A program made the translations under genes and the position numbers. A DNA stretch of 64,000 nucleotides from Rhodoblastus acidophilus. Its GTDB lineage: Bacteria > Pseudomonadota > Alphaproteobacteria > Rhizobiales > Beijerinckiaceae. The number at the start of each line of letters is the position of its first letter. Within the stretch, counting starts at the first letter, position 1. The DNA lies in assembly GCF_025961575.1 (NCBI RefSeq), contig NZ_JAOQNX010000018.1, positions 1 through 64,000 on the forward strand. The letters are read 5' to 3'. Positions 1 through 27,403 of the stretch are shown piece by piece. The notes beneath the pieces were generated by a model, which worked only from the letters and a program-made list of their open reading frames with translations, was not told where the DNA came from and made no database searches.

Positions 1-3
1 CAT
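1..3 (-). CDS. start of a mobile-element gene leaving the window
   Basis: Only the initiation codon of this minus-strand gene is inside the window: CAT at 1-3 reads ATG on the minus strand. It is preceded by a near-perfect Shine-Dalgarno (GAGGAGG about 7 bases upstream), so a real gene probably starts here and continues to the left. It follows the 244-residue putative assembly protein in the same direction; positions 4-173 between them hold no convincing gene. In a tailed-phage structural block the next gene would often be capsid or portal, but nothing of the product can be seen. Confidence 0.55.
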
Positions 4-173
4 GGGATTCCTCCTCGAAATCACGCGGGAAGAATCGCATCGTTCAAGCCAATTGGGAATCCCCTATCGAATCGGAACTCGCCGAACGCGCTCTAGAGGG
101 GGCACACGCGGGGGAAGCGGCGGCGCAGCATCGCGTGTGGGCGGCAGCAACGCCGCCCGCCCCGGCTGACCTT

Positions 174-908
174 TCAGCCGGCGAAATTCGCGTAGGCTTC
201 CTGCTCGGCCGGCGACAGCTTGCCGATAGCGCGCTCGTAGGCCATCGGGTCGGTGCTCGCCAGACGGTCGAGGGCGGCGAAGTCGCGCGCGGAGCCGCTG
301 CCGCCACCGTCGCGCCCGCCCATATCGTCATAGGCCGCCGCGCGCTGCTTCAGCCCCATGGTGCCGTTCAGGTCGTCGGTGAAGCTCTTGAACGCCTTCT
401 CAAGCTGCGCCCGGTCAGACAGGTGAGCATACGCCGCGTTGCTGGTCACGGCCTTCACATGCTCGTCAAATGCGATCAGTGCAGCGCGAGAGTTGGCGAT
501 CTTCGCGCCGGTGGTCGCCATGAAGTCGGTCACGGCGGCGCTCCATTGGTTATCCTCGGCCTGACGCTTCATGTCGTTGGCGAGTTCCGCCTTGCGCTGC
601 GCCCAGCGGACTTGCTCGCGGGCGTCGGCGGCGCGGGCTAGGGCGTCGCGGTATTGCGCGGACGTAATCTGGCCGTCCTCGAACTGGCGCTGTGCCTCAT
701 CCTCGAAGGCCGCAACGCGCTGGAGGTTGTCGGCGACGGCGACGGGCGCGGCGGTCAGGACAGGTGTCACGTCCTGCCGCAGTTCCAATTCCTCCACGTC
801 GCGCTGCTCGGGCTCGGTGACCTGCTGCGGGGCGTCGTCCTCGGCGAGGGCGGCGCGCTCCTCGTGGGTCAGGCTCAGGAGTTCGTCGGGGGTGTGCTGC
901 TCGTTCAT
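174..908 (-). CDS. putative phage assembly/scaffold-like protein, 244 aa
   Basis: I recognise no family with certainty. The protein is hydrophilic, with an acidic Glu/Asp-rich N-terminal 45 residues, then Ala/Gln/Arg-rich stretches (about 60-130) predicted to be helical or coiled, and a Gly-rich linker near 200-208. This composition is typical of phage scaffold or internal virion proteins, which is an inference. The start is supported by AGAGGAG seven bases before the ATG. It lies 29 bases after the giant polyvalent protein on the same strand and so is probably cotranscribed with it. It could equally be a virion accessory protein. Confidence 0.6.
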   Translation of the reverse strand: MNEQHTPDELLSLTHEERAALAEDDAPQQVTEPEQRDVEELELRQDVTPVLTAAPVAVADNLQRVAAFEDEAQRQFEDGQITSAQYRDALARAADAREQVRWAQRKAELANDMKRQAEDNQWSAAVTDFMATTGAKIANSRAALIAFDEHVKAVTSNAAYAHLSDRAQLEKAFKSFTDDLNGTMGLKQRAAAYDDMGGRDGGGSGSARDFAALDRLASTDPMAYERAIGKLSPAEQEAYANFAG

Positions 909-937
909 GGTTTTCTCCTCTTAAAAAATGGTCAGTT

Positions 938-3900
938 TCAGCGCCCGTAAACCGATGGCGCGGTGTGCCGGCCGATCCGGTCTTCCAGCTTGTCGTCCAG
1001 GTCGACGCCGTGCTCCATGCGCTCGCCCTTGGTGCGAAGACGCTTGGCCGCCGCTGTGACGTCCTTCGCCCTGATGTGCTCCTCGGGATAGCGCTCGTTG
1101 TAGGCGTCCACCTTCAGCATGGCGGCGTTCAGCGCGTCCTCGTCGCCGGCCATGCGGGCGCGCGCAGCCTCGCGGAGCGCCGCTCCTCTCGCCTCATGGA
1201 TGTGGTTCTGCTGGTTCCGCTGGTACGTGTTACGGTCCAGTTGCTCGCGAACCTGGGCGGGGGTGAAGCCCAAGAACTGCTTGAACAGGTCGAGCACCGA
1301 CAGGTTCTCCACGACCGGGTTTCCGTTCTTGTCGAGCACGCCGCCCGCATAGGCGTAGCGCGCCGCCTTCATCGGGTTCTTGACCGCCGCTGGAGCCAGC
1401 TTCTCAACGCCGCGCCAAGTGTTGCCCTTGCCGATTTCGCCAGCGCCCTGCGCCATCTGATGCGTCAGGCCGATGGTCGCGCCGAATAGCTGTTCGAGCA
1501 CGCGGAGGAAAACCTCATCCGCGTTCTTGGCCTCGTAATTGTTCGAGCGGAACCAAAGGTCAGCGTTGCCGATGCGGTCGGACAGCGCCGTACCGCTGAT
1601 CCAGCCCGGCACGCCATCCATCAGCATGCCGCCGAAGGCCTTGCCGATCAGGCTGTCGCCCGTCGCTTGAAGCACGATCCGGCGCAGGGATTCCTCGGGC
1701 TCGTCGTCTCCTCCCGCCAGCCCCATGAAAAAGCTGGCCAGCGACATCAGCGTGCTCATCATGAACATGCCGGTGAGGCCCGCCATCGGGATGGACATGG
1801 CGACCATGGTCGTGAATCGGCCGATGGCCATCTTGCGCTCAAGCGGCGTCTCGCCCTTGAACGACTGGTGCAGATCGCGGAAGGCGCGGAACAGCACATT
1901 CACTTGGTACGACTTGAGCGCGAAAATCACGCGCGCCATGTCGCCGCGCATCGCGCGCGCCTTGGATGACGCCTGATTGTCGTAATGGCTCATCCAGGTC
2001 AGATCGGACGCCTTCTTCACCGCCTCGGCCTCTGACAGGCCCGCCTTGCGCGCGATGCGATAGGCGGCAAGGAACGTCACTTCACGGTTGGCGCGCTCCG
2101 TATGGTGCATGGGAGCCGACGCGGCCTTCATGACCATGTTCAGGACAGGGTTATAGGAGACGCCCGTTTCCGAGATAGACGCCAGATCATGAGCCTGGGT
2201 CTTGTCGATGACGCCACTCTCGTAGCCCTTCTGAATGGCGCTGCGCTCTTCATCGGCGAGCCCGCTGGAGTTCTCGATGAAGCCACGCCCCCGCATGAAG
2301 TCGGCAGTCGCGCTGGCGAGCTCGCGCATGGCGCGCACCACGCCGGCCTGGGTGTCTGCGTCATAGGCGAGAACCGCGCCGCCCTTGCTGAACGTCTGCT
2401 CGATGTTCACGATTGCGGATGAGACATTGAACGCCATCGTCCACAGGAAGGTGAACGACGTCAGCCTGTGTGCCCAAGTGGCGCCGATGGGATTCATGAT
2501 GAAGTCGTGCGTGCGGCGCGCTTCAGCCTCAATGGCTCCAGACCAAACCGGGTCGGGGCTGACTTCAACTTCCTTGTGCATTTCGTCCAGATGCTCTTGC
2601 AGGTCGATGCCGTATTTCAGGCGGCTCATCTGGTGGCCGGCGTGGAACATGGTGTGCGCGTAGGCGCGCAGCGCATCCGTGTTGAAGCCCATCGTCCCTT
2701 TGCGGTGGATGCGGTGCTTGCGCATCGACATATCCGGCAAGGATTCGAGATAGCGCTGCCACACCTGATCGCGGACTTCGCGCGAGACGTTGCTGTCGTC
2801 GAGGATCGCGTCGAGGTTTTCCATGAACCGGGGATCGACCATTTTGCCGCGGTCTTTGCCTTCCTGCATCAGCCCGGTTTCGACGTGCTGGCCCTTCACC
2901 TGCGACTGTTCGCGAGCGAAGCGCTTGCGATCTGTCTCGCTCTCAAACTTCGAGAAAGAGACAATCCGGCCTTCGTCGTTGCGGACGGTGACGAAGTAAT
3001 TGCCGAAGCGCGCAAGCGGGAAGTAAGGGCCGTGTAGGCGATTGCGCTCGAACTCTGCCCGGAGGCGCTTTAGGCGCGCCGCCCTGGCGCGCTTCCCAAT
3101 CGTTTCGGCATGAGCAAGCCGGTTCTTGGCCTTGTCGATGGCGTCGGCGCGCTCCGCATCGGACAGGCTCGCGTCGCTGTTCGCCGCCTTCACATCATCC
3201 GCATAGCGGCGCTGTGCGCGCTTGATGTTGGCGTCGATAGCGCGCTTCACGTTTTCCAGCACGAGCTTTTCCTGCGCGTCGCCCATTTCCTTATAGGAGT
3301 CGCGAATCTCGTTGAAGATGACCTTCGCGGGCGGCGACAGGGCGTCGTACTGATCCTTCAGCACGCCCCACATTTCCTCTCGGCGCTGCTCGCGCGCAGC
3401 GGCCTCGTCGTCCTCCAGGCTGATCGGGCGCTCCTGCCCACGCCACGGCTTGCTGGGGTCAACCTGCTCGCGCGTAACCTCGTGCATCAGGTCCATGAGA
3501 GCCTGGTTCTCCTTTCGGTTCGGGAAGGAGATTTTTGCGCCATCGCGAACCATCTTGTTCGCGTAGCGGAACCACGCTTGCAGCGTGTCATCGGTCTTCT
3601 GCGCAAGATCGTTGCGCATGGTGTCCATGGCGGTCTTGGAATCAAGATAGCGACGCGCCGACGGAAGATGCTTGGCGATTTCCATGAACAGCGGGCGCGT
3701 CGGGATCAGCCCAAGCGCGCTCGTCTCGGGGTTGTTGCCGCCGGTGAGGCGATCCATCATGAAGCCGGCGACGCGGCGGCGGATGCCGTCGAGGGTTGTT
3801 TCGCCGGATTCAGGCGGGTCGCCAGCAATCGAATAGCGCGCGCCATTCTTGGCAATCTTGGGGTTCGGTTTGCCGTCCCAAGAGCGTAGGGCCGCGAGCG

Positions 3901-6900
3901 CGAGCGAGCGCAACTGGCTCGGCGTGACGTCGCCTAACTGTTTGCCGAAGCGGCGAAGCGCCCAGGCCTTCACATGACCGACGAAGCTATCCACGGCTTC
4001 GCGCAGGCCGCGCGGAGCGGCCTCGGCGTTCTCGATGATGTAGGCGGCGACTTCCTCGGCCATGTGTTCGGCCGGCGCGTTCGCTGCCTGGGCGCGGTCG
4101 AGCGCGGCGCGCCAGAAGTCGCCGTTCGTGTGCGCCTTGCCAGACAGGGCGCGCTCCATGGCGGTGTCGGTGGCCGCCTGAACGCGGCTCATGAGAGCGC
4201 GCCAGCCCTGCGAGCCAACGAGCGGCTCAGCGCCAGCGTGGAAGGCCTCGTGCAGCAGAACGCTATACGCCCTGTCCGGCCTCAGGTGGCGCGCAACCAG
4301 ATGGATCGTGCCATCGGGCATAGTGAAGCCCTGTACGCCACGTTTCTCGCCAGCAGCAGCATGATCGTCGTGCAGCACGATCTTTCCGCTATCGATCATT
4401 TTGGCGATCAGGGGCGCGTGAGGGCCGCGCTCCATGTGCTCACGCAGGCTGGCCGCATCCAAGCCTGACGCTTCCTGCGCGGCGGGCGCGACGGACGCCT
4501 TGGGCGCGCGGCCAGCGGGCTTCGTGGCCTTCGCCTGGGTACGGGGTTGCGCGGCGGCTTTCATCGCCGTCGGCTCATCGGCGGCAGCACGGCGGCGGTT
4601 GATTTCGGTCTCAACCTCGCGGCGGCTCGCGACCAAGTCGCGGTTCGAGCCGTTGGACCTCGCTAGCGTAGCGATAGCCTTGAGGCGCTGGCGAAATTCC
4701 GGCTCAGACATTTCCGCGAGCAGGCGCGCGAACTCGGCGGCGCTAGGCTGCGCGGCCTTGCCCGGGACACGCGCGCGGTCGCCCGGTTCGCCGCCCTCAC
4801 TGTCGGTCGGCATGGCCCCGAACTGCTGCTCGACTGGCGCGGATTGAACCGCCTGTGGCTGACCCTGGCCAGCGGGGCTCTTGCGCGCATCAATCTCGCG
4901 CTCGACGTCGCGGCGAGCCTTGGTGAGCCGAGCGCTCCAGCCGGACGCCTTGCCTTGGTCCGCAAGGAATTTCATGCGCTCGCGCAGTTCAGGCTCAGAC
5001 ATTTCCGAAAGCGGCTTGTCCTGCTGCTTCAGCGGCCGAACAGTCGGAGCTTTCGCTGTGGCTGTCTCGCCGACGCTGGACGGTTCTTCGACCACCTCGG
5101 CGGGTGCAGGCGCTGCCGGCGTTTCAGCCGTCAAGGATTCCTTGACGGGTTCGACCGGCGTTGACGCTTCAATGACAGGCTCAGGAAGAGTGCCGGCTGA
5201 AGTGGTGTTTTCAGGCTGTATCGCCTGATTTTCTTGGGGTTTAGGGCGGCCGGCCGGAGGCTCGGCCGACGCGGACGGCGCAGCGCCTTCCTCGCGCGGC
5301 ACAAAACGCGGCTCGGGCATGTGGGGGGCGTCCGGTGCGGGAACGATCTTCGACGTTCCGCCCGCAAGCTCCTCGTGGCTGATAAGCTGCTGCACGCCAT
5401 CGTCGCCAAGGAACAGCACGCCGTCAGCGTCCTGCCCGACGATATGACCCGCCATCTGCAAGGTGTGATCGGGGAAGCTTTCCGGCACAGCGTTCAGCAT
5501 CACGCGCTTGCCGGCGATGGTCGCCAGCGGCGCATGATCCGGCGCGCCAGCGGCGAGCGCGGCAGACAGCGGCCCGCTAGGCGTCGAAGGCGGCGTACCT
5601 GCATCGCTCGCCAGCGGCACGGTCTGATTGCTGGCAGTCGGCGCGGGAGCCGGCGGCGGTGCGCTGGGAGTTGCTGGCGGCGGCGGCGGTGCCGGCGCTG
5701 GCGACTGGCCTTGCTGGGTGTCCTTGGTCGCGCCATGGAACGCGCCGCCCATGCCAACGCCCATGACAGCGCCGGTGACAGCGCCGCCAAGGCCCTGGTT
5801 CACGACGTCATCCATAAGGGATTTGTTCGGATCGGCGTTCTTGACCGCCTCATTCTGCGCAAGCTGCTGAAGCGCGCTCTGCGGCAGTTCCTCGGCGAGC
5901 CCTTCGCCCAGGCCGGCGCCAGCGAGGCGCTTCGCCAAGTCTTTCAGACCAGCGCCTTCGGCCCGGCCAAGGAAGGTCTTGGCGATGATCCGGTCGCCCA
6001 TGCCGCCGAAAATGCCGGTCGCGATGCCGCCGGTAATGAAGGCGCGCGCGCCCATGTCGGTGGCGAGCGCCTTACGCGCCGCTTCCTCCGACATGCCCTG
6101 CCCCGTCATGGCCTTGAAGGCGTCGGACTGGCGCAGCGTTTCAAAGGGGAGTTTTTCGATTTCCTGCCGAACCTCGCGCTCGCTCTGCGCGCCACCCAGC
6201 AAGCCTTCGGTGGCCGCGCCAGCGACGGTCGCCACAGTTGCAGCGTGCTTCGCAGCTTCCGCCGCCGTCGCGCCGCGCGCCATGGACGCGGCAAACGCAC
6301 CCTTGGCGAGCTTCAGCGCCGGGCCGGACGACAAGAGCGTTTCCGGCATGGACTGGAGGATTGTGCCGGAATAGGCGCGCCAGTCGGTGAACGCGTCGCC
6401 GAACTTGCTCTTGTCGGAATCCCACCACTTCTTGGCGAGGGATTCACGCATCTTCGGCGTGTATTCCTCGGCGAGCTTTTTGCTCTGTTCCTCGGCGACT
6501 TCCGCTCCGGTCTTACCGTTGAGCAACCAGCGGTCGGCCGCGTCGAGCGCGTTCATGATCTTGGTCGGCAGGATTTTGCGAGCAACGCCGTCAATGTCCT
6601 GCACGGCCATATTGAGGCCCTGATCAATCGCCACGCGGGCGTCGTTCAGATTTCCCATCAGGCCAGGCTCTTTGACCGGCGCGGGCGGCGCGGGCGGCTC
6701 AGGAGCGGGCGCGGGGAAATAGGTGTCGGTGATACGCTGCGTGCGCGCGAGCACATCATCCGCATAGCTGTGCGCGTCCGGCCCCCAGGACGCCGGGTCG
6801 GCGTTGCCGGCAGCGAAAGCCTTCACCGCGTCCTGCGGCGGAAGACCGTGCATCTGCATCAGCGTGGCGAGCTTCCTGGCTGCGTAGTCGATGTTCTGCT

Positions 6901-7294
6901 CTGGCACGTAGGGGTTGACGCCCGACTTAGCGACGTCTTCGTCGGTCATCTTGATCATGCCGCGCGTCTTCGCGCCGGGTCCGCGCGAGCGCGCAAACGG
7001 ATCAAGACCGGAGTCCTTTTCGGCCATGCCAATCAGGACGTCGGCCGGGACGTTGTATTTTTCCGCGGCGGCGCGGAAAGCGGCGAGAGAGAGTTGGTCG
7101 AGGGCGCGCTGCTCGATGGCGCTGGTCCCTGACGGAACTACGCGCTGGCCAGGGACATCGGTCGCAACTTTCTCCTGAGCGGGCTCCGGCACGATGCCGA
7201 CGCCCTTTGCGTCCCATTCGGCGAGTTGGTCCTCGACCATTTGGTGAAAATCGGCGATGCGATAGTCGGACATGAGGGCGTCGATCTGGTTCAT
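938..7294 (-). CDS. giant phage polyvalent protein: transglycosylase, HExxH peptidase, LPD38-like C-terminus (2118 aa)
   Basis: A multidomain mobile-element protein. Around residues 60-180 lies a lytic-transglycosylase-like (SLT) domain with the probable catalytic Glu in IGMAEKDSGLDP, followed by a GMIKMT segment. Proline-rich linkers follow (about 200 and 530-560), with Gly/Ala-rich hydrophobic segments between them. Two copies of a roughly 45-residue helical repeat beginning EMSEPE occur near 755-800 and 850-900. A zinc-peptidase motif HEAFH sits at 1015-1019. The C-terminal third resembles the large polyvalent-protein region (LPD38-like) of phage internal proteins, with a hydrophobic stretch near 1815-1850. 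Such proteins enter the cell with phage DNA; the transglycosylase would open peptidoglycan and the peptidase would process the polyprotein or a host target. The role is inference. GGAGAG precedes the start by 6 bases. It lies 14 bases after the degenerate ATPase gene. Confidence 0.85.
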   Translation of the reverse strand: MNQIDALMSDYRIADFHQMVEDQLAEWDAKGVGIVPEPAQEKVATDVPGQRVVPSGTSAIEQRALDQLSLAAFRAAAEKYNVPADVLIGMAEKDSGLDPFARSRGPGAKTRGMIKMTDEDVAKSGVNPYVPEQNIDYAARKLATLMQMHGLPPQDAVKAFAAGNADPASWGPDAHSYADDVLARTQRITDTYFPAPAPEPPAPPAPVKEPGLMGNLNDARVAIDQGLNMAVQDIDGVARKILPTKIMNALDAADRWLLNGKTGAEVAEEQSKKLAEEYTPKMRESLAKKWWDSDKSKFGDAFTDWRAYSGTILQSMPETLLSSGPALKLAKGAFAASMARGATAAEAAKHAATVATVAGAATEGLLGGAQSEREVRQEIEKLPFETLRQSDAFKAMTGQGMSEEAARKALATDMGARAFITGGIATGIFGGMGDRIIAKTFLGRAEGAGLKDLAKRLAGAGLGEGLAEELPQSALQQLAQNEAVKNADPNKSLMDDVVNQGLGGAVTGAVMGVGMGGAFHGATKDTQQGQSPAPAPPPPPATPSAPPPAPAPTASNQTVPLASDAGTPPSTPSGPLSAALAAGAPDHAPLATIAGKRVMLNAVPESFPDHTLQMAGHIVGQDADGVLFLGDDGVQQLISHEELAGGTSKIVPAPDAPHMPEPRFVPREEGAAPSASAEPPAGRPKPQENQAIQPENTTSAGTLPEPVIEASTPVEPVKESLTAETPAAPAPAEVVEEPSSVGETATAKAPTVRPLKQQDKPLSEMSEPELRERMKFLADQGKASGWSARLTKARRDVEREIDARKSPAGQGQPQAVQSAPVEQQFGAMPTDSEGGEPGDRARVPGKAAQPSAAEFARLLAEMSEPEFRQRLKAIATLARSNGSNRDLVASRREVETEINRRRAAADEPTAMKAAAQPRTQAKATKPAGRAPKASVAPAAQEASGLDAASLREHMERGPHAPLIAKMIDSGKIVLHDDHAAAGEKRGVQGFTMPDGTIHLVARHLRPDRAYSVLLHEAFHAGAEPLVGSQGWRALMSRVQAATDTAMERALSGKAHTNGDFWRAALDRAQAANAPAEHMAEEVAAYIIENAEAAPRGLREAVDSFVGHVKAWALRRFGKQLGDVTPSQLRSLALAALRSWDGKPNPKIAKNGARYSIAGDPPESGETTLDGIRRRVAGFMMDRLTGGNNPETSALGLIPTRPLFMEIAKHLPSARRYLDSKTAMDTMRNDLAQKTDDTLQAWFRYANKMVRDGAKISFPNRKENQALMDLMHEVTREQVDPSKPWRGQERPISLEDDEAAAREQRREEMWGVLKDQYDALSPPAKVIFNEIRDSYKEMGDAQEKLVLENVKRAIDANIKRAQRRYADDVKAANSDASLSDAERADAIDKAKNRLAHAETIGKRARAARLKRLRAEFERNRLHGPYFPLARFGNYFVTVRNDEGRIVSFSKFESETDRKRFAREQSQVKGQHVETGLMQEGKDRGKMVDPRFMENLDAILDDSNVSREVRDQVWQRYLESLPDMSMRKHRIHRKGTMGFNTDALRAYAHTMFHAGHQMSRLKYGIDLQEHLDEMHKEVEVSPDPVWSGAIEAEARRTHDFIMNPIGATWAHRLTSFTFLWTMAFNVSSAIVNIEQTFSKGGAVLAYDADTQAGVVRAMRELASATADFMRGRGFIENSSGLADEERSAIQKGYESGVIDKTQAHDLASISETGVSYNPVLNMVMKAASAPMHHTERANREVTFLAAYRIARKAGLSEAEAVKKASDLTWMSHYDNQASSKARAMRGDMARVIFALKSYQVNVLFRAFRDLHQSFKGETPLERKMAIGRFTTMVAMSIPMAGLTGMFMMSTLMSLASFFMGLAGGDDEPEESLRRIVLQATGDSLIGKAFGGMLMDGVPGWISGTALSDRIGNADLWFRSNNYEAKNADEVFLRVLEQLFGATIGLTHQMAQGAGEIGKGNTWRGVEKLAPAAVKNPMKAARYAYAGGVLDKNGNPVVENLSVLDLFKQFLGFTPAQVREQLDRNTYQRNQQNHIHEARGAALREAARARMAGDEDALNAAMLKVDAYNERYPEEHIRAKDVTAAAKRLRTKGERMEHGVDLDDKLEDRIGRHTAPSVYGR

Positions 7295-7308
7295 GGCAAG
7301 CTCTCCGT

Positions 7309-8388: not shown

Positions 8389-8429
8389 GATCGTTGTCCT
8401 GGTTGAGGTTTGGTGATGTGGTTGGGAAA

Positions 8430-8966
8430 TTAGGGGCGAACCGGCAGGGCGTTGCCCATCATCTGCTGCACGATCAGGTGCAGCGGGTTCTCCTGCTCAC
8501 CGCCGAGCTTCACGCGCTCCACCCACAATTGCAGGTGCTTGCCCAACAATTCGAGCGCGCGCAGCTTGTCGTTCATACGCACCTTGCGCACGGTGCTGAT
8601 AGCGTCGCCGTCGCTCGACGAAATGGTTTCGACCGAGGCGATGGCGCGGCGCACGGACTCGTCCATGTCTTCAAGCGAGCGGACCTCGCCGGTCGGCGTG
8701 AAGACCTTCGCCGGATCGAGGAAGGCAATCGCCGCGAGCTCGTGAAGCACCCGGTCAGCTGTGATTTCCGTGCGTTCGGAGCGGGATTTTTTGGCGGCCG
8801 AGATGGCGTCGGCGATGTCAACATTCGTCAACAAACGCTGCCCCTGCGACTTTGCCGTCTTCGCGCTATAGCCGGCCTCGAGGGCGGCCTTCGTTGCATT
8901 GAGGGAGATGATGTACTCCTCGACGAAGCGCTGTTGTTTGGGGGTCAGTTTCTTGCTCGGTTTCAT
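8430..8966 (-). CDS. phage terminase small subunit (TerS), 178 aa
   Basis: The N-terminus has the Terminase_2 family signature: LTPKQQRFVEEYIISLNATK followed by AALEAGYSAKTAKSQG, the helix-turn-helix that recognises pac/cos DNA. A central helical oligomerisation region follows, and then a hydrophilic tail. TerS forms a ring that selects viral DNA and hands it to the large terminase ATPase, which is not encoded in this window. AGAGGAAG lies 7 bases before the ATG. The gene lies between the iteron-bearing gene and the degenerate ATPase on the same strand. A TerS without TerL is usual in phage-inducible islands, but TerL may lie to the left. Confidence 0.92.
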   Translation of the reverse strand: MKPSKKLTPKQQRFVEEYIISLNATKAALEAGYSAKTAKSQGQRLLTNVDIADAISAAKKSRSERTEITADRVLHELAAIAFLDPAKVFTPTGEVRSLEDMDESVRRAIASVETISSSDGDAISTVRKVRMNDKLRALELLGKHLQLWVERVKLGGEQENPLHLIVQQMMGNALPVRP

Positions 8967-8983
8967 GTTCTCTTCCTCTGTCT

Positions 8984-9436
8984 TCAGTGCTGTTTGGCGG
9001 CGATGGTGGCGCGCGCCAGGGGCACTTCGAGCCGTTCAGCGACGGCGCGGGCTTCGGCGGGCGTGAACGCGGCGAGCGCCGTCCATTCGTTCACGATGGC
9101 GAGCCAGATGGCTGCGCGCGAGAAGGTGGGGCGGTCGGGTTCCCACCAGTCGGTGAAGGGCATGATGCGTTTCAGCATGTCGCGCGCATGCACCACCGCG
9201 CCGGCGCGGGCGGCGAGAGCATGGGCGGTCAATTGGTGGTTGGGGTTGGAACCGCCCGGGCCGTCCAAACGGTCCTCAGGGCGGTTTCCAACCGCCGGGG
9301 GGTATAAGGGGGGTTGGAACACACCCCCGTTGGAAGCGGTTGGAAGGTTTTTCATGGCGGTTGGAACCAGGGTTGGGAGGTAGTTGGAAGCCGGTTGGAA
9401 GGCCGTTTTTCCGGTTGGAAGGCGGTTGGAAGCCAC
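8984..9436 (-). CDS. unknown mobile-element protein whose 5' end carries a repeat array, 150 aa
   Basis: The GTG start lies directly after the TAG stop of the primase-helicase gene, with no spacer and no clear Shine-Dalgarno, so expression would be by translational coupling. The first 45 residues (motifs such as SNRLPT, FQPAS and NYLPT) are just the translation of an iteron-like DNA repeat in different frames and look unconstrained. From about residue 68 the protein looks genuine: Ala-rich helices and a WWEPDRP loop, with no family recognised. An internal ATG at 9355 is possible. The gene may be a passenger over a replication origin. Confidence 0.5.
   Translation of the reverse strand: MASNRLPTGKTAFQPASNYLPTLVPTAMKNLPTASNGGVFQPPLYPPAVGNRPEDRLDGPGGSNPNHQLTAHALAARAGAVVHARDMLKRIMPFTDWWEPDRPTFSRAAIWLAIVNEWTALAAFTPAEARAVAERLEVPLARATIAAKQH
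9244..9431. repeat. iteron-like array of GGTTGGAA repeats, candidate replication origin
   Basis: The octamer GGTTGGAA (or a one-base variant) begins at 9244, 9312, 9329, 9338, 9359, 9371, 9383, 9393, 9413 and 9424 on the plus strand, and once inverted at 9285-9293. From 9329 on the spacing is 9-12 or 20-21 bases, close to one or two helical turns, so copies face one side of the DNA. The array abuts the 3' end of the primase/helicase gene, where iteron origins of phage-inducible islands are known to lie. Its function as an origin is inferred. Confidence 0.65.
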
Positions 9437-11737
9437 CTAATCGGCAGGCTCGGGCAGGTCGTGGTCGGTCGAGCCGCCCTCCTCGCTTTCGCCTGAAACA
9501 TCCCCACCGATGCCCTGCGACACGATCACAAGGCGCTGCCGCGGCTTCGACGGCGGGCCGAAGCCCTCAACCTCGATGCGGCCGGATTGCAGCAGTCGGT
9601 TCATCGCGCGGCCGAGCTCTGAACTTCTCATGCCCTTGGCATTCTCGTGACCCTGGAAAAGCGCGGGCGCGTAGGTCGGTCCCTTGTTTGGCGAGACGGC
9701 CCGCTTCTCGCGAATGAACTGCTCCAGCAGCGCGAGGAACACGTTGTCGGCGTGATGCGCGGCGTCGGCGGCATTCACGGCGCTTTGCGTCTCGCGCTCG
9801 AACTTGCCATCTTTCCAGCGCAGGACGATCTGTCCGCCGGTAGGCGAGCGATTTGACTTCTTCGTCGAGAGAACGCGCAGGTCGCGATCATCCTCGACGA
9901 CGCGCTTGCCGTCGGTTCTCAGCCTGCGTTCCAGGTAGAGGCGGGAGCGCACGCTGTTGTTCCAGGCCGTATTGCCGCTGGTGCCAGTGCCGGAATTCAT
10001 GCCGCTTTGCGACGGATGCGAAAGCAGCACCACGGTCATGTCGTGCTGAAGGGCGAGCCCACGCAGCATGCCTATGAATTGGCGCGCCTGCACTTTCTTG
10101 ATTTCGTCGCCGCCGAACAGGTCGGCCAACGTGTCCAGAATCAGCAAGTCCGGCTGGTTACGAGCAATGATGCGCTCTAGCGCGGTGAAGAGGGCTGTCG
10201 GCTTCAACAGGCCTTCGCGTCCCTCAGGCGCGGCGAGTACCGCATCCTTGCCGGCGAGGTCAGCGATGATCAGGTCGCTCAGCAGATCAAGGCGCGGCTC
10301 GATGCGCGCGAGACGGCGGTGCAATTCGGCGGTTTCATCCTCGGCGCTGATGAACAGCACACGGCCCTTCTCGGTGTAGAAGCCGATCCAAGGTTTGCCT
10401 GTCGCCAAGGCTGCGCCGAGTTGCAGACCCAGCAGCGACTTGCCCGTAGCGCCATCGCCGGCCAGCATGGTCACGTTGCCGTGCGGGATCAGGTCTTTGA
10501 TCAGCCAGTGCTGGGCCGGGATAGGCTTGCCAGCGAGGGAGGCGGCGCTGATGATTTCCATTTCCACTGCTCGCGGCTGCTGAGCATGAGGCGCGGCGTG
10601 CGGCGCTTCGCCTTGGATAATTTCGCCAGTCTCGGGGTCGGAACCCACCGCGAGATGGTTCGGAATCGGATTGCTTTCGCGCGCGCCGAGCGCGGCGGCG
10701 ATCTGCGCGCCCAGGCGCTCAGCCTGCTCGTCGCCGGGCATTTCGCGATCAACCAGCGGCGGGTGCGGTTGAGACAGGCCGGCATTCAGGCCGCTGGCGA
10801 TAGTCGCGCGGCAAGTGCGCGGGCCATCATCACGCCAGGAACCGTTCGCACGGCACGCGCCCTCCAGGGCTGTCACGACGGCTTCCTGAGAAATCCAGCC
10901 TGCGCCAACGCAGCGCCCCATGGAATAGGCCATTTCGTTCAGAGCGTTGTTGCGGCCACCCTTCGCGGTTTCGGCGAGTTCCTTCGCCTGTGCGTCGAGC
11001 TTGACGCGCGCCCAGGCGCGCTCGCGCTCGCCCGCCGCTGCCGCGCTGGTGAGCGGATCGCAATTCGTCGCGGCCTGGGCTTCCGGTTCGGGCTTCGCGC
11101 GCAACGCGGCGGCGATTCGCTCGGGGAGAGCCGGAATCTTGCCAGTGTCGAACGCCTCCACCAGATCAGGCGAACCCGGTTCGGTGCGCCACTGACGCCC
11201 GTCTGGGAGCGTCGCGCCTGGAGCGATGACATAACCGCCAGCGCCGCGAACATCGACGCCGAGCCCCTTGAACTCGCCGGCCGAATTGCCAAAAGGGGCG
11301 TCGGGCTGGTTCAGAAAATACAGATGAACGCCGCCATTCGCCGTCGCCACCATCGGAGCACCGAACTTGGTCGGATCGCCCACGCGGTCAAAGAAGTTCT
11401 GCAATCCGTCGGGGCCGCCGTGGCGATCCAGGTCGGAGACGATCAGGCCAGCTTTGGCGAGGTCGATGGCAGGAATGGCGTCGGGAAAACTGCGCCACCA
11501 TTTCTCGACGGTCCGCGCGTCGCACGTCGATTCCGCGCGCCATTTGACGAGCGGGTTTTTATGGGTGTTGCAGGGAAACACGGGAGCGCCAACTTCGGCG
11601 AGACGCAGCGCGATCTGACGATTTTTCACGCGCCAGGATTTGGTGCTGTTCGTGGGCGTGGCGAAGTCATCGCTTTGCTCGCCGTGGTCGCTAAGGTCCA
11701 TTTCGGCCACGATAAATTCAAGACCGAGGTCAGCCAT
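9437..11737 (-). CDS. bifunctional primase-polymerase / RepA-type helicase, 766 aa
   Basis: Replication protein of the element. The N-terminal Prim-Pol domain (about 35-190) has the acidic pair in IVSDLDRHGG near residue 101, GGVHLYF near 137 and GVDVRGAGGYVIAPG. A helical linker (about 230-330) follows. The C-terminal RecA/RepA-like AAA_25 domain (about 390-620) has an intact Walker A GDGATGKS near 430, an FISAEDE segment, Walker B LLILD near 532 and LLSHPSQSG. The tail is probably a winged helix (about 670-730). Such enzymes unwind and prime the element's own origin. Its start overlaps the end of the deoxyribosyltransferase gene by 8 bases, and its stop abuts the iteron array. Confidence 0.9.
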   Translation of the reverse strand: MADLGLEFIVAEMDLSDHGEQSDDFATPTNSTKSWRVKNRQIALRLAEVGAPVFPCNTHKNPLVKWRAESTCDARTVEKWWRSFPDAIPAIDLAKAGLIVSDLDRHGGPDGLQNFFDRVGDPTKFGAPMVATANGGVHLYFLNQPDAPFGNSAGEFKGLGVDVRGAGGYVIAPGATLPDGRQWRTEPGSPDLVEAFDTGKIPALPERIAAALRAKPEPEAQAATNCDPLTSAAAAGERERAWARVKLDAQAKELAETAKGGRNNALNEMAYSMGRCVGAGWISQEAVVTALEGACRANGSWRDDGPRTCRATIASGLNAGLSQPHPPLVDREMPGDEQAERLGAQIAAALGARESNPIPNHLAVGSDPETGEIIQGEAPHAAPHAQQPRAVEMEIISAASLAGKPIPAQHWLIKDLIPHGNVTMLAGDGATGKSLLGLQLGAALATGKPWIGFYTEKGRVLFISAEDETAELHRRLARIEPRLDLLSDLIIADLAGKDAVLAAPEGREGLLKPTALFTALERIIARNQPDLLILDTLADLFGGDEIKKVQARQFIGMLRGLALQHDMTVVLLSHPSQSGMNSGTGTSGNTAWNNSVRSRLYLERRLRTDGKRVVEDDRDLRVLSTKKSNRSPTGGQIVLRWKDGKFERETQSAVNAADAAHHADNVFLALLEQFIREKRAVSPNKGPTYAPALFQGHENAKGMRSSELGRAMNRLLQSGRIEVEGFGPPSKPRQRLVIVSQGIGGDVSGESEEGGSTDHDLPEPAD

Positions 11738-12278
11738 TGCCGCCCCCCATCACGCTCAACGCGCGCGCTGAACGCCACGCCTGGATTGCGTTCCAGAAAG
11801 CCTCTTCGAGATTGCCGTTAACCAAGTGGCATGCCTGGGCCACAAACCAGAAATCGTTGACTTGCCGCCTTGTCAGGTCAGGTCCGAGATTCAGAAAAAC
11901 AGGAACGCCAATGGCATGGGCGTGACCGATCTCAACGAGAGTGCCGAAGCAATCCGTCTCGTTTATGCTGGCGAACACGAAATCCGACTTCGCTATCCTG
12001 GCGAGGGAAACATCGAACACGCGAGCACGTTTGTTTTTCTCACCTTGCCCGTGCGTCCCAGGAACATGGGAAAGGCCGTGGCCGAAGCAGGCGAAGAACG
12101 GTCCGGTGCAAACGAAATTCGGCGTGTCTTCAAACTCGTTCGGGTCGAGCGGATTGCGCGGATAGATCGTGCGATACGTCAGGCGCTCGCGCCAGCCGTG
12201 CTGGGCGATTTTTCCGGCCAGATAGACGTGCGGCTTCTCGCGCGGCGGTTGATTTTTGAGGGGGGCTGGGGTAGCCAT
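11730..12278 (-). CDS. nucleoside 2-deoxyribosyltransferase-like protein, 182 aa
   Basis: The N-terminus HVYLAGKI plus a following Trp-Arg, and the later segment NETDCFGTLVEIGHAHAIG, match the nucleoside deoxyribosyltransferase-like Rossmann superfamily. The Glu of the VEIG segment is the expected nucleophile. Phage and island members may act on nucleotides or nucleotide-derived signals; the substrate cannot be read from the sequence. Residues 45-90 form a longer Cys/His/Gly-containing insert than in short family members. It overlaps the primase-helicase by 8 bases, so the two are translationally coupled. Confidence 0.72.
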   Translation of the reverse strand: MATPAPLKNQPPREKPHVYLAGKIAQHGWRERLTYRTIYPRNPLDPNEFEDTPNFVCTGPFFACFGHGLSHVPGTHGQGEKNKRARVFDVSLARIAKSDFVFASINETDCFGTLVEIGHAHAIGVPVFLNLGPDLTRRQVNDFWFVAQACHLVNGNLEEAFWNAIQAWRSARALSVMGGGNG

Positions 12279-12305
12279 TTAATTGGACCTGCATCAATCG
12301 TGATG

Positions 12306-12337
12306 AAACTGCCCAGCGCTGCAACGCCGGGCAGTTT
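12306..12337. terminator. hairpin between the AlpA-like and deoxyribosyltransferase genes
   Basis: AAACTGCCC at 12306-12314 pairs perfectly with GGGCAGTTT at 12329-12337 around a 14-base loop. A T-rich tail follows only on the plus strand. On the minus strand, in which the flanking genes are transcribed, it would act as an attenuating or processing hairpin more than a strong terminator. Confidence 0.5.
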
Positions 12338-12350
12338 TCGTTTGTGAAGA

Positions 12351-12611
12351 TTAGGCGGCGGCGGCTTCGGTGGTGCTCGGCATCGGAAGGCCGGCGATGT
12401 AGAGCGCTGCGATGGGGCCACGCACGCTGCTGCGGCGGCCGTCCTTTTCAAGGATCACGCGGCCGGCTTTAACGTCCTCATAGAAGGTAGTTCTGCCGAC
12501 ATCCTTAAGTGCGCGCACTTCATCCACGCTCAGGCGGCCGACTTTCAGACGCACCTCGACGGGGATCGGGTTTGAATGCCGCTTACGCTTCTTTTCGTCT
12601 TCAATCTGCAT
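12351..12611 (-). CDS. AlpA/excisionase-like DNA-binding protein, 86 aa
   Basis: The central segment LSVDEVRALKDVGRTTFYED, continuing into VKAGRVILEKDGRRSSVRG, has the winged-HTH order of AlpA/MerR-type excisionases: helix-turn-helix, then a Gly-Arg-Arg wing that sets the DNA contact. Proteins of this type direct excision or activate the integrase promoter in prophages and islands. I start it at the ATG at 12611, which has GGAGG seven bases upstream. A GTG 45 bases further upstream has no ribosome-binding site. The Lys/Arg-rich N-terminus is compatible with DNA binding. Confidence 0.7.
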   Translation of the reverse strand: MQIEDEKKRKRHSNPIPVEVRLKVGRLSVDEVRALKDVGRTTFYEDVKAGRVILEKDGRRSSVRGPIAALYIAGLPMPSTTEAAAA

Positions 12612-12679
12612 CGCGTCCTCCAGAACAGCCAGGGCTGACGGAGGACAAAAAATCACAATCGCTCTGGTCGCGAGGGGGC

Positions 12680-13525
12680 TTAGCTTTCGGCCTCGCGAGC
12701 TAAGCTCCCTCTGCTTGATCGGCGCGTTTCATTGATCGCGCTCGCCATGGCTGTCGGGGATTCTTTCCCGTCCAGCCCACGGTTGTGTAGCTGAAATGTT
12801 TCAGGCCAACACCGCGTCAATTCCAGCATGAACTCCGTAAATTGAGACGGCTTCTCTTTGCTGTATTTGCTGTTCCCCGCGCTCGTTGGCAGCCTTAAGG
12901 CGCTAAAGACGCGATCAATATCGCGCAGCATCTTCGCCCACGCTGTCGATGTCGGCGTCTTTGGCCAGAGCGGATCACGCTGGGATGGGCCAATGTCTAT
13001 TGTTTCGGGGGGCGACAGGCTTTTGGCTGCTTTGGCGATTCGCGACACAACGCGAACCGCGTCGGCCAGCGGATTCGCGCTCTCGATTGCAGCGGCCATG
13101 GCTATGTCAAAATCGCTGTCACCGCTTCGACAGGCAGGCGCTAGGTCCAGCGGATTGAGCAAAGCCTCGCTCAGAATGTCGCGCGTCGCCAACATCTCCC
13201 GCGAATCGGTTTCGGATGAAAGCAGCGACACGAGTTCATTGGCCGCGCTCTCGATCTTGGCGACAAATTTTCTCACGGTCACCGCGTTGAACGCCAAAAT
13301 TTCGGTTTCGCGCGCATAGAAATAGCGCCGGGAAATTTCGCTGATTGCAATCCTGGCCCTGTTAGAATTGTCCTTAAAGTCGAGATCGCATTTATCCGCG
13401 ATGCCGTCCCAATCGCGCTTGCGAAGGCTCCAAGCCGGAAGTTCGGGCTCAGCGTAAAAGCTGCCCACAATATCACCCCGCTTGCTACGGCGTCGCTTCG
13501 GCTTGTCGTCTTGATCGTCTTCCAT
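12680..13525 (-). CDS. unknown mobile-element protein, 281 aa
   Basis: No family recognised. The chosen ATG at 13525 begins a strongly acidic-then-basic N-terminus (MEDDQDDKPKRRRSKRGD). The rest is predicted soluble and helical, with an SLLSSETDSREML segment and several Trp residues in the C-terminal half. Starting further upstream at 13663 would overlap the PrtN-like gene and add a low-complexity Arg-rich stretch, so I reject it. The stop codon lies inside a GCTTAGCT/AGCTAAGC inverted repeat (about 12678-12705). It lies between the PrtN-like and AlpA-like regulators and is probably in their transcript. Confidence 0.6.
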   Translation of the reverse strand: MEDDQDDKPKRRRSKRGDIVGSFYAEPELPAWSLRKRDWDGIADKCDLDFKDNSNRARIAISEISRRYFYARETEILAFNAVTVRKFVAKIESAANELVSLLSSETDSREMLATRDILSEALLNPLDLAPACRSGDSDFDIAMAAAIESANPLADAVRVVSRIAKAAKSLSPPETIDIGPSQRDPLWPKTPTSTAWAKMLRDIDRVFSALRLPTSAGNSKYSKEKPSQFTEFMLELTRCWPETFQLHNRGLDGKESPTAMASAINETRRSSRGSLAREAES

Positions 13526-13588
13526 CCAGGTTGCCTTAATGCGTGGCGCGCGGGCCTGATGTTGAGGCTCGCGCGCTAAAACGAAGAA

Positions 13589-13607
13589 GGCCGGCAGATC
13601 GCCGGCC
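13589..13607 (-). terminator. hairpin after the PrtN-like gene
   Basis: GGCCGGC and GCCGGCC form a perfect 7-bp stem with a 5-base loop just downstream of the PrtN-like stop. On the minus strand it is followed by CTTCTTCGTTTT, a weak U-rich tail, so it is probably a partial terminator. Confidence 0.45.
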
Positions 13608-13613
13608 CTCCGC

Positions 13614-13874
13614 TTATTCGGTAAGTTGCCTGAGCTCCTTCGCCGCCGCCTCCCGGCGCGCATCGATCCAGGCGGCTAGGTCGTTGACGTGGACCCCACG
13701 CGCCGCGCGCTTGCTCCCTTCGATACGGACGAGCGGAAGCTTAATTTCGCCTCTGTCAACCTTCTGCACGAACTTTACCGGCTCCAGATGGGTGAAGAAG
13801 TCGGCACAGACCTTCTCCACCGGGATAATGGGCAGGCCGTCGTAGCGCGCCAAGAGCATCCATGCGGTTTTCAT
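13614..13874 (-). CDS. pyocin activator PrtN-like protein, 86 aa
   Basis: The protein closely follows the PrtN family: MKTAWMLLARYDGLPIIPVE, a CADFFTHL segment, then LPLVRIEGSKRAARGVHVND and an Ala/Lys-rich C-terminus. In Pseudomonas, PrtN binds P-boxes and activates pyocin genes. Short PrtN-like proteins are common in alphaproteobacterial prophages and islands as presumed activators of element genes. Its ATG overlaps the stop of the upstream 107-residue gene (ATGA, 13871-13874). The gene is the best candidate for the positive switch of this element, as no CI-type repressor is visible. Confidence 0.82.
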   Translation of the reverse strand: MKTAWMLLARYDGLPIIPVEKVCADFFTHLEPVKFVQKVDRGEIKLPLVRIEGSKRAARGVHVNDLAAWIDARREAAAKELRQLTE

Positions 13875-14194
13875 CGGGCCGCTCCTGCAAGCTGGAGCGC
13901 ACCGTTGGCGATCACCATGGCGAGCGCACGAGCCGAGCCCGGCGCGTCGTTGGTGAACTCAGGGTCACGGTCGGTTTCAAGGCTCAGTGCTTGACTGATC
14001 CAAGCGAGGTCGGCCAGCGATCCGACAGGGTGGGAAGCGATCAGCTCACGAAGCGCCCAATGGCGATCCACCACCGCGCCGTATTCAGTGTCATCCATTG
14101 CGGTTGGCGGATCGCGCAGAATGGCGTCGACCTTCAGCAATTCGGAAAACAGACGCTTGATCGGAGATTTTCCGGTGTTATCTTTCTTTGACAT
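13871..14194 (-). CDS. unknown mobile-element protein, 107 aa
   Basis: No family recognised. It has a basic N-terminus (MSKKDNTGKSPIKRLF), a soluble middle and an Ala-rich C-terminal helix. It overlaps the PrtN-like gene by four bases in an ATGA arrangement, so the two are cotranslated. It is the first gene downstream of the integrase region in the minus-strand series and might modulate PrtN, but this rests on position only. Confidence 0.6.
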   Translation of the reverse strand: MSKKDNTGKSPIKRLFSELLKVDAILRDPPTAMDDTEYGAVVDRHWALRELIASHPVGSLADLAWISQALSLETDRDPEFTNDAPGSARALAMVIANGALQLAGAAR

Positions 14195-14292
14195 GATGCG
14201 AAACCCTTCTTCGCGTTATGATGGTCGGGATTGAGGCGTAGCAGCGCCTCGCCCGGCCGCTTTATCGGGCGGCGAGATTGCCGCCAGATTTC

Positions 14293-15510
14293 TTATGCAG
14301 CGTCGCATTCCGTTTTCGGCTGCACGCCACCGCGCATTTCGGCGCACTGGCTCGCCCACCAATCCATCATTCGGACGCGCTCATCCCAAAAATCCGCCCT
14401 GGCGTAAGCCTTGCGGATCGAATCAGCGTCTTCATGGGCAAGCTGGCGCTCGATTGCATCGGGATGCCAAAGCCCGCATTCGTTGAGCATTGAAGATGCG
14501 GCGGCGCGAAAGCCGTGGGCACTCATCTCGTCTTTCTCGAACCCAAGCCGGCGCAGAGCGGCATTCAGCGTGTTCTCGGACATGCAGCGCGTCGCGGAGC
14601 GCGTGGATGGAAAGAGGTATTTGCCCCGTCCGGTCATCTGCTGCATGTCTCGGAGAATTTCCAACGCACGCGGCGACAACGGAACGCGGTGGGGCCGGCG
14701 CATTTTCATCTTTTCAGCCGGGATGGTCCAGAGCGCGCGATCCATGTCGAACTCGGCCCATTCAGCGGCGCGAAGTTCTCCCGGTCGAACAAAGGTCAAC
14801 GCGAGCAATTCCAGCGCGGCCCGTGTCTCTGGCGCGCCGGCGTAGCCATCAATGGCGCGAAGCAACCCGCCAAACGCCTTCGGCTCGATGATCGCGGCCC
14901 GGTGTTTCACGACCGGCGCGGTGAGCGCGCCCTTAAGCGCCGAGGTCGGATCGTTCTCTGCGCGTCCGGTGGCGATGGCGAATCGGAAAACCTCGCCAAT
15001 AGAGGCGCGCATCTTTTTCGCCGTCTCTAACCGCCCGCGCGCCTCGACAACCCGGAGCGCAGCAAGAACCTCGGCGGACGAAAGTTCCGCAATGGGTCGC
15101 GCGCCGATGACCGGGCGCGCGAGCGCCATATACCAACTGAAATGTTCCAACGTCCCTGCCGCTTTGCCTTCGCGGCGCTTCTTCTCCAGCAATTCGGCGG
15201 CGAGCGCATCAAACGTGGCCTCAAGAGACGCGGTTCGCGTGGACTTTGCGATTTTCTTGATGACGGAAGGGTCTTGGCCGGCGTCGATTTGCTTCTTCGC
15301 CGTCTCGCGCGCCTCGCGGGCTTCTTTCAGGCCGACCGACGGGTAAACGCCGATGGCCAGCGCTTTTTGCTTGCCGGCAATGCGGTAGGCCAGCCGCCAT
15401 CTTTTTGCGCCGTCAGGCGTCACCCATAGCTGTAAGCCGCCGCCGTCGCTCAGCTTCACGACCTTCGGCCCAGGCTTGGCATTTTTGCATTGGAGATCGG
15501 AGAGCGACAT
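14293..15510 (-). CDS. tyrosine-recombinase integrase, P4 type, 405 aa
   Basis: Catalyses site-specific integration and excision of the element. The N-terminus (SDLQCKNAKPGPKVVKLSDG, then LWVTPDGAKRWRLAYR) is the arm-binding DUF4102 domain of P4-like integrases. A core-binding domain follows (about 95-200). The catalytic domain has Arg in FVRPGELR near 243, the His-x-x-Arg pair in SAHGFRAAASS, a His-Glu-Asp (LAHEDAD), and the nucleophile Tyr in KAYARADF near 367. Length is normal. The start lies within a TTGGTA repeat region and 175 bases from the tRNA-Met 3' end, the expected arrangement of an integrase beside its tRNA attachment site. Confidence 0.96.
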   Translation of the reverse strand: MSLSDLQCKNAKPGPKVVKLSDGGGLQLWVTPDGAKRWRLAYRIAGKQKALAIGVYPSVGLKEAREARETAKKQIDAGQDPSVIKKIAKSTRTASLEATFDALAAELLEKKRREGKAAGTLEHFSWYMALARPVIGARPIAELSSAEVLAALRVVEARGRLETAKKMRASIGEVFRFAIATGRAENDPTSALKGALTAPVVKHRAAIIEPKAFGGLLRAIDGYAGAPETRAALELLALTFVRPGELRAAEWAEFDMDRALWTIPAEKMKMRRPHRVPLSPRALEILRDMQQMTGRGKYLFPSTRSATRCMSENTLNAALRRLGFEKDEMSAHGFRAAASSMLNECGLWHPDAIERQLAHEDADSIRKAYARADFWDERVRMMDWWASQCAEMRGGVQPKTECDAA

Positions 15511-15511
15511 T

Positions 15512-15560
15512 GTTGGTACGCACCGCGTTGGTAATTCGGCTTACCAACGAAGTTACCAAC
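15512..15560. repeat. four GTTGGTA repeats: integrase arm sites or operator
   Basis: GTTGGTA occurs at 15512-15518 and 15527-15533 on the plus strand and, inverted, at 15542-15548 and 15554-15560. The two pairs make nested inverted repeats directly upstream of the integrase start codon. Spacing within each pair is 12-15 bases. The position between integrase and tRNA attachment site suits integrase arm-type sites, Xis sites, or an autoregulatory operator. The attachment core itself should lie in the 3' part of the tRNA gene or in 15561-15684. Confidence 0.6.
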
Positions 15561-15684
15561 AATTTCCCCGACTGCAAGCGGGGGTCAACGACCATCCCCG
15601 AACGCCAGCGGAACAATGAGTGCTAGTGAATTCAGGTACTTGAGTACGTTTGCGATCTTCAACGAACGTCAGCGAAGGTAAAAG

Positions 15685-25563: not shown

Positions 25564-25610
25564 TGCTTCCTCCGGATTCCCAGGGGGCCGCCAGAGGCGG
25601 CGCCCCTCAT

Positions 25611-26192: not shown

Positions 26193-26246
26193 ATCGCCTC
26201 CCCTCGCCCTTCCTAACCCGACCGGCGGCTCGGCAAAAGAGGCGCG

Positions 26247-26884: not shown

Positions 26885-26885
26885 A

Positions 26886-27350: not shown

Positions 27351-27403
27351 TTCTTTCACTCCCAAGAATTCGTAAAACGAATTTTTAGGGAGCGAAGTTC
27401 CGG

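Follow-up and report, generated by a model that had tools for sequence, protein, structure and literature searches.

Near the start of contig C18 (NZ_JAOQNX010000018.1) of Rhodoblastus acidophilus, a tyrosine integrase gene beside a tRNA-Met gene raises the question of whether the genes around it form a prophage or a phage satellite, a choice that the initial annotation of this DNA had left open. The window, that is, the whole stretch that we analyzed, is the first 64 kb of C18, taken from an assembly of 4.91 Mb in 80 contigs (G000, referred to below as the host genome). We conclude that the element is quite probably an integrative satellite, in Rhodoblastus, of phages similar to Parlo and POI1126, which, like the related R. 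acidophilus phages, we take to be podoviruses. A test set beforehand depended on whether a second copy of the tRNA-Met 3' end (attachment site, att) or a gene for the large terminase subunit (TerL) or the capsid would be met first; the att copy came before any TerL or capsid gene, and the same test applied to a sister element on the complete chromosome of Rhodoblastus sp. SSC7 again gave a satellite. The satellite reading accounts for the ends of the element, the genes that it lacks, the set that it retains and the recurrence of that set.

The core genes, which extend from int (14293-15510) to a 244-amino-acid open reading frame (ORF; 174-908), all lie on the minus strand and adjoin the tRNA-Met gene at 15685-15761. 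The features of the window portion are as follows.

1-95, no strand: 5' end of an insertion sequence; contig break, with the element probably continuing on contig C10
174-908, minus: 244-amino-acid gp61-like protein, a probable scaffolding protein (phrog_8246; all-helical model)
938-7294, minus: 2118-amino-acid slim giant virion protein, DarB-like/LPD39 and SLT (family scans; alignment)
7309-8388, minus: 359-amino-acid RecA/KaiC-fold protein with a degenerate P-loop (model and structure search)
8430-8966, minus: small terminase subunit (TerS), Terminase_2, with the C-terminal tail pattern (Pfam, 1.4e-43)
8984-9436, minus: 150-amino-acid ORF with a GTG start (ORF call); its 5' part overlaps the iterons
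9244-9431, no strand: iteron array, eight exact copies of GGTTGGAA, presumed replication origin (repeat count)
9437-11737, minus: Prim-Pol and AAA_25 primase-helicase, 766 amino acids (family scans)
11730-12278, minus: 182-amino-acid nucleoside deoxyribosyltransferase-like ORF (below the Pfam cutoff)
12351-12656, minus: 101-amino-acid ORF, earlier labeled AlpA-like (no Pfam, PHROG or NCBIfam match)
12680-13663, minus: 327-amino-acid ORF (no family assigned in Pfam and PHROG scans)
13614-13874, minus: PyocinActivator/PrtN-type protein of a PHROG excisionase family (family scans)
13871-14194, minus: 107-amino-acid ORF (no family assigned in Pfam and PHROG scans)
14293-15510, minus: tyrosine integrase, 55% identical to the SSC7 element integrase (family scans, comparison)
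15682-15705, no strand: attachment core (24/24 copy at C10:5033-5056)
15685-15761, minus: tRNA-Met (CAT), the integration site (tRNA call)

These ORF coordinates agree with the gene order and single strand given in the initial annotation, and its integrase, PrtN-like protein, primase-helicase, TerS and giant protein were all backed by Pfam and PHROG family scans; its AlpA-like label for 12351-12656 found no such backing.

The left end had been placed outside the window, and the window edge is in fact the start of the contig, lying within the end of an insertion sequence that we take to be IS630-like from its TA target and transposase text. Contig C10 in turn starts within the 3' part of such an insertion sequence, oriented as it would be if the two contigs flanked one copy. 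When the 3' region of tRNA-Met was used as a query, its end proved to be repeated at 24/24 positions on C10, as a direct repeat 4.7 kb past the insertion sequence, and the 24-base match takes in three bases immediately outside the tRNA gene. Without the insertion sequence, the element would comprise 15,610 plus 4,741 bases, or about 20.4 kb. The two att copies and the presence of the sister element in the same gene support the view that the tyrosine integrase placed the element in tRNA-Met. As expected of a satellite, the element lies between attachment repeats and has its own integrase, the far repeat of the window's element being on another contig by way of the proposed C18-C10 join.

The absence of TerL, portal, capsid and tail genes from the 15.6 kb, claimed from the sequence at the outset, held when we searched with a reference set of 45 podovirus proteins (41 from Parlo and POI1126 and 4 from R. 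acidophilus G001). Only the TerS, giant and gp61 queries matched the window and the SSC7 element, and the 162 kb of C10 had no match to any of the 45 proteins. Homologs of TerL, portal, capsid or tail proteins were found neither between the element ends on the window and C10 nor within the SSC7 element. As a positive control, 33 of the 45 queries matched 40 kb of the G001 prophage (29 of 41 when its own proteins were set aside). Thus, as is characteristic of satellites, the element does not have all of the genes for head, packaging motor and tail, and it lacks the TerL, portal and major capsid protein that define a Parlo-like prophage. Whole-record searches with the G001 TerL and capsid proteins also gave no match in the host genome, the SSC7 chromosome or record G419, while both queries matched all three phages and prophages searched alongside (G154, G420 and G421). 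In the host genome, the cognate TerL and capsid queries were unmatched, the portal not being searched genome-wide; two Terminase_6C proteins (C6 and C26) were considered as signs of a resident helper and rejected, their neighbors not appearing Parlo-like by ORF text. A phage of the presumed helper type is found in another R. acidophilus genome, G001, which carries an apparently complete Parlo-like prophage with TerS, TerL (62% identity to Parlo), portal (59%), gp61, capsid protein (67%), tail and internal proteins, a 4,208-amino-acid giant, endolysin and an integrase-like ORF (the last by ORF text). An ORF beside this prophage is presumably dusA-like.

To find related elements, we scanned an alignment of the C-terminal part of the giant over species-level genomes and viral contigs, which gave 29 plus 76, or 105, loci. 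A homolog of the 359-amino-acid protein was present in two of them, L096 and L111. The first lies on the complete, metagenome-assembled chromosome (MAG) of Rhodoblastus sp. SSC7, where the element occupies the same tRNA-Met gene and measures 19.8 kb from tRNA-Met to an imperfect att copy (92% over 24). Its integrase, TerS and gp61-like protein are 55%, 42% and 46% identical to those of the window, respectively, and it also carries a primase with AAA_25, a giant and the 359-amino-acid homolog; at its far end, a restriction-modification pair (an Mrr-type nuclease and an N6/N4 methyltransferase) is followed by the att copy. The gene order in SSC7 is TerS, giant, 359-amino-acid protein and gp61-like protein, and that in the window is TerS, 359-amino-acid protein, giant and gp61-like protein. 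The second, L111 (IMG/VR 2802429733_000002), has the primase, TerS, the 359-amino-acid homolog and the giant in the window's order and starts near a contig end. Two further elements, one full and the other partial, thus have the shared gene set. Elsewhere on the record of L111, G419 (L200/L201), tail-like and peptidoglycan-binding-like ORFs at about 24000-36000 perhaps belong to another prophage, by ORF text.

We also observed remnants of such elements. In the host genome, C32:36915-37625 (L062:16916-17626) appears to be what is left of a second one, with an intact-looking TerS (50 to 54% identical to that of the window) and the first 50 residues of the 359-amino-acid protein. It is followed by cas-like ORFs (by ORF text) and, further on, by a CRISPR array from which 26 spacers were extracted; none of these spacers was matched over a useful length elsewhere in the sequences compared. 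In R. acidophilus G001, a degraded cassette of TerS, 359-amino-acid protein and giant lies at a contig end (C24:21273-25302; L061:9274-13303), its fragments being 54 to 74% identical for the 359-amino-acid protein and 74% for the giant. G001 therefore holds both a Parlo-like prophage and the remnant of such an element.

The giant protein carries SLT, LPD39 and a DarB-like C terminus according to family scans and matches 47 phage records, including Parlo, LASTA, PEp14, PBC5 and POI1126. It is much shorter than its phage relatives, with 2,118 amino acids in the window versus 3,764 in Parlo, 4,841 in POI1126, 4,208 in R. acidophilus G001 and 4,311 in G420. The window giant aligns to those of G001 and G420 over approximately residues 64-821 and 922-2118, so that both ends are kept and the phage giants have, in between, about 2,000 residues without a counterpart. 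Roughly the same central stretch is missing in all three elements (window, SSC7 and L111), and in the window and L111 the two ends are in one frame. In G001, the central stretch contains Helicase_C and a weak, below-cutoff SNF2 match, and LPD39 lies in the retained part. The N-terminal end of the window giant is closer to that of G420 (45%) than to that of G001 (31%), whereas the N-terminal ends of the L111 and SSC7 giants are closer to G001. In a tree of the C-terminal part (73 of 106 rows, after near-identical ones were dropped), the window, SSC7 and L111 fell into one clade (support, 1.0) with phages intermixed. SSC7 paired with the R. acidophilus prophage (1.0) and the window with the IMG/VR phage L099 (0.96), and placement was weak for L111 and L098/L100 (0.47 and 0.42). 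This pattern suggests either that the central loss happened more than once or that giant ends were exchanged with phages.

A possible model for such a protein is the virion RNA polymerase of phage N4, in which, according to an excerpt of PMC5512222, the enzyme is flanked by an N-terminal part for injection and a C-terminal part for encapsidation. Compared with the N4 polymerase and P1 DarB, the slim giant has both terminal parts and no middle, which by analogy would fit a protein whose payload was lost and whose delivery parts were kept. Unlike the N4 protein, it has no polymerase, and what it retains at the C terminus is the region that is LPD39/DarB-like in podovirus giants. Across the 105 loci, the giant frame had at least 3,000 amino acids in 81 and was shorter in 24, several of the latter being cut by locus ends or broken. 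On viral or bacterial contigs, L091, L093/L164 and L147 had giant frames of 2,133 to 2,194 amino acids. Slim giants may therefore also occur outside the three elements, these loci being possible examples.

The 244-amino-acid protein at 174-908 had been described as assembly-like. The family to which it belongs, phrog_8246, carries no function label; what upheld the description was genomic position, since its homolog lies between the portal and major capsid protein genes in Parlo and POI1126. It matches seven records, the Parlo match being gp61, and all 16 loci with a gp61 relative had a portal and/or capsid gene nearby, a count that comes from the viral collection and so is biased toward phages; the window and SSC7 elements had none. 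The scaffolding gene usually sits between the portal and major capsid protein genes. Because the homolog occupies this place, we regard the gp61-like protein as a probable capsid scaffold. Its model (pLDDT, 79; all helical) matched one unnamed protein in a viral structure library (E, 1e-7). P4 Psu, the top match in the PDB, was rejected as a structural relative, its E value of 0.68 not being evidence, and PDB sequence matches, with E values of 0.021 or worse, were read as chance coiled-coil similarity.

The TerS proteins of the window, SSC7 and the C32 remnant belong to Terminase_2 and that of L111 to Sf6_terminase. All four nevertheless share a hydrophobic C-terminal tail pattern, which thus spans two TerS families. 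The pattern was strictly present in five of eight phage TerS proteins (Parlo, POI1126, L240, L244 and G001) and in 1 of 662 background ORFs (13 of 662 for a looser pattern), the background figure being only partly independent because the pattern was written after these TerS proteins had been viewed. L240, a phage with a Parlo-type TerL, has an Sf6-type TerS that is 42% identical to that of L111. Parlo-type phages thus use TerS of both Pfam families, several with the tail pattern; a recheck of four loci without a first match found TerS in three (L246, L247 and L250) and none in L249. The shared tail is possibly a TerL-docking peptide. A tail that is kept while the body of TerS changes is what would be expected if it docks on a common motor, an argument that three exceptions described below have weakened, and our estimate for the satellite rests on other lines.

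Between TerS and the giant lies the 359-amino-acid protein, previously noted as a degenerate ATPase. Its AAA match was marginal (E, 0.071), and the ATPase-like fold was instead indicated by a Foldseek search with its model (pLDDT, 67), in which RecA/KaiC structures were matched (E, 7e-6; TM-score over the query, about 0.3 to 0.4); the P-loop is degenerate in the window, as noted, and in L111 and nearly canonical in SSC7. Clear homologs were found only in these elements and their remnants. Over viral contigs, the single sequence found no relative, and a three-row alignment found the record of L111 only. The same alignment matched 41 of 397 genomes of the order, the host genome included; the other 40 matches were partial, scored about 19 to 27 bits in ORFs of about 250 to 820 amino acids and were read as generic RecA/KaiC-type proteins. 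Our guess would be that the protein is accessory to TerS or to replication.

The iteron array that had been reported could be confirmed by counting: GGTTGGAA occurs eight times on both strands of the 64-kb window, always within 9244-9431, whereas 200 shuffles of the 470-bp region gave at most four copies of any 8-mer. The array lies directly 3' of the primase gene in a region with 66% G+C and is presumed to be the replication origin. Because the 5' part of the 150-amino-acid ORF overlaps the iterons, its true start may be downstream. No comparable array was found 3' of the primases of SSC7 and L111.

The alternative that survives best is a decayed Parlo-like prophage from which TerL, portal, capsid and tail genes were deleted and which is now immobile, and we consider it unlikely. 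It would draw on the facts that such phages contain relatives of TerS, the giant and gp61, that insertion sequences are numerous in the host genome and that the transfer of a satellite is inferred only. However, the reduced set recurs on the complete SSC7 chromosome and largely in L111, with the window frames intact, and the same internal segment of the giant is lost in three of three elements, leaving ends that are in frame in the window and L111. The TerS, 359-amino-acid, gp61-like and integrase genes show constraint, with no inner stops in the window or SSC7 and a lower divergence between the two at codon positions 1 and 2 than at position 3, which is probably saturated. Additionally, the gene for the 359-amino-acid protein, not found in the G001 prophage, adjoins TerS or the gp61-like gene, and L111 TerS belongs to another family.

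Several points weigh against a satellite. We infer the join to C10, the dependence on a helper and its identity, the size of the capsid, all of the interactions and actual transfer. The join rests on the att copy and the insertion-sequence orientation, and no empty site confirms the far end because the left flank of tRNA-Met was common to none of three relatives (G001, G004 and G006), the right flank being common to all three. The helper would be external, since the host genome holds none. The family is small, with only 2 of 105 giant-bearing loci having the 359-amino-acid protein. In SSC7, a MAG, the giant gene is spread over several frames; in L111, where the 5' end is lacking, no gp61-like gene was found, and tail-like ORFs (by ORF text) lie more than 10 kb beyond the element on the same record. 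For the gp61-like protein, PHROGs gives no function, Pfam has no family and the PDB gave no structural match at an E value of 0.001 or lower. With regard to the TerS tail, it was absent from the last 45 residues of the G420 (L247) and L246 proteins, L250 fits only with one position relaxed, and G420 is a close relative by its giant, yet has a TerS without the tail.

If the element is a satellite, its cycle might run as follows. Once a helper phage is multiplying, the element would be released by its PrtN-type excisionase and integrase and then copied from the iterons by the Prim-Pol helicase. Its TerS would pick satellite DNA and dock on the helper TerL, perhaps via the C-terminal tail, while the gp61-like protein would scaffold the helper capsid protein, perhaps into a smaller shell for a 20-kb genome; the element is about one third of the size of the 57- to 63-kb phages. 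The slim giant would replace the helper's protein of 3,764 to 4,841 amino acids in the particle and be injected with the DNA, keeping the N-terminal SLT end and the C-terminal virion part and not the central helicase-bearing payload.

More tentatively, and as a claim on which we stop somewhat short of even confidence, the elements may form a new satellite family that brings its own version of the largest virion protein injected by the helper, edited by removal of the central, anti-restriction-type payload and with ends that resemble different phage lineages. Satellites known so far redirect packaging (TerS) and shell size (scaffold) or bring a whole head; if the claim is true, internal virion proteins would be a further layer that satellites hijack. 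Satellites would then repeatedly swap the giant gene with their helpers, and a slim giant would be maintained because a small shell set by the scaffold must accommodate both the protein and 20 kb of DNA. The elements would also provide a natural experiment that separates the encapsidation and DNA entry parts of a DarB-type giant from its enzymatic payload. The satellite reading itself, if true, would extend satellites to Parlo-like podoviruses and Rhodoblastus. We found no such element described in the literature on phage satellites, phage-inducible chromosomal islands (PICIs), polyvalent proteins or Rhodoblastus prophages, as judged by titles and the starts of abstracts among the matches listed, with most subscription papers outside the search.

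Among known systems, the Gram-negative PICIs are similar in having a site-specific integrase, a core running in one direction, a primase with 3' iterons, accessory genes at the far end and packaging and presumed morphogenesis genes without TerL, capsid or tail. In the element, the core genes have one orientation and the far-end ORFs on C10 the opposite one. PICI origins have iterons directly 3' of the replication gene, in two sets flanking an AT-rich region, according to a section of PMC6092414. That section also names exclusive genes, attachment sites that temperate prophages never occupy, phage-dependent induction, phage interference and, for some elements, capsid morphogenesis homologs as PICI features; the one prophage of the genus that we considered lies beside the presumably dusA-like ORF. 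The element differs from PICIs in its size of about 20 kb, its presumed Parlo-like podovirus helper, its giant virion protein, its RecA-fold protein and its unconfirmed AlpA. We describe it as PICI-like and do not file it as a PICI, because AlpA was not found and the name would also call for exclusive genes, induction and interference. The cf-PICIs and Mulch/Flayer, which are likewise satellites, also bring their own virion morphogenesis genes, but theirs include capsid protein, portal and TerL (from part of PMC10690885), none of which was found in this element. PICMIs differ by their fis-adjacent site, reduced gene content and lack of capsid remodeling genes, as opposed to tRNA-Met and 20 kb here. 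The Parlo, POI1126 and R. acidophilus phages have relatives of TerS, the giant and the gp61-like protein; unlike the element, they have their own TerL, portal, capsid and tail or internal virion genes and a longer giant. A further satellite with a temperate helper is the Escherichia coli PICI EcCIMP1, whose helper, vB_EcoP_Kapi1, is presumably short tailed to judge from EcoP in its name, although the text of the paper has no word that starts with podovir. EcCIMP1 has no identifiable terminase or capsid morphogenesis genes, and a giant virion protein is not mentioned for it in the sections of PMC11773190 that we cite.

The C10 part of the element contains a 273-amino-acid ORF, two small ORFs, a 644-amino-acid ORF and a 108-amino-acid ORF, the last of which adjoins the att copy and belongs to phrog_436. 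The 644-amino-acid ORF (C10:2520-4454) has a CoiA_N-like start, below the Pfam cutoff, and occupies the far end, where the SSC7 element has its restriction-modification pair; it is a candidate accessory or defense gene. PADLOC assigned no family in the five C10 ORFs scanned. These unassigned far-end genes and the CoiA_N-like ORF, together with the occurrence of polyvalent proteins in conjugative elements as well (noted in part of PMC5512222), could suggest an integrative element that uses phage-derived proteins for a role other than packaging, such as protein delivery or defense, and is no satellite. We judge this very unlikely, since TerS and the gp61-like gene make most sense with a phage and since general scans showed no conjugation family in 11 window ORFs and in five (Pfam) or four (PHROG) C10 ORFs, the 150-amino-acid window ORF and one 127-amino-acid C10 ORF being left out.

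The insertion sequence bears on the remaining alternative. Ends of the same type occur at C18, C8 and C57 (5') and at C10, C12 and C58 (3'), and C8 and C12 appear to be paired because a methyltransferase-like protein seems to continue from the flank of one into that of the other, though in different frames of the join; this leaves C18 and C57 versus C10 and C58. A complete prophage with its late genes on another contig, C18 joining a contig besides C10, is suggested by a join that passes through a multicopy insertion sequence with three 5' and three 3' ends alike, but it is extremely improbable, as C12 appears to pair with C8, neither the 6,072 bp of C58 nor the initial 8 kb of C12 matched the window or the podovirus proteins, the att copy is, among the three 3'-end contigs, in C10 only and the host genome has no cognate TerL or capsid gene. 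The insertion sequences form a family of about 1.05 kb with two sequence types (about 87 to 90% alike) that breaks the assembly at many contig ends (C1, C6, C8, C18, C21, C23, C28, C35, C38, C47, C53 and C57), with an internal copy in C27. Finally, a comparison of G001, G004, G006, SSC7 and the window indicates that the region downstream of tRNA-Met, which in the host genome is unshared, is probably an integration hotspot.

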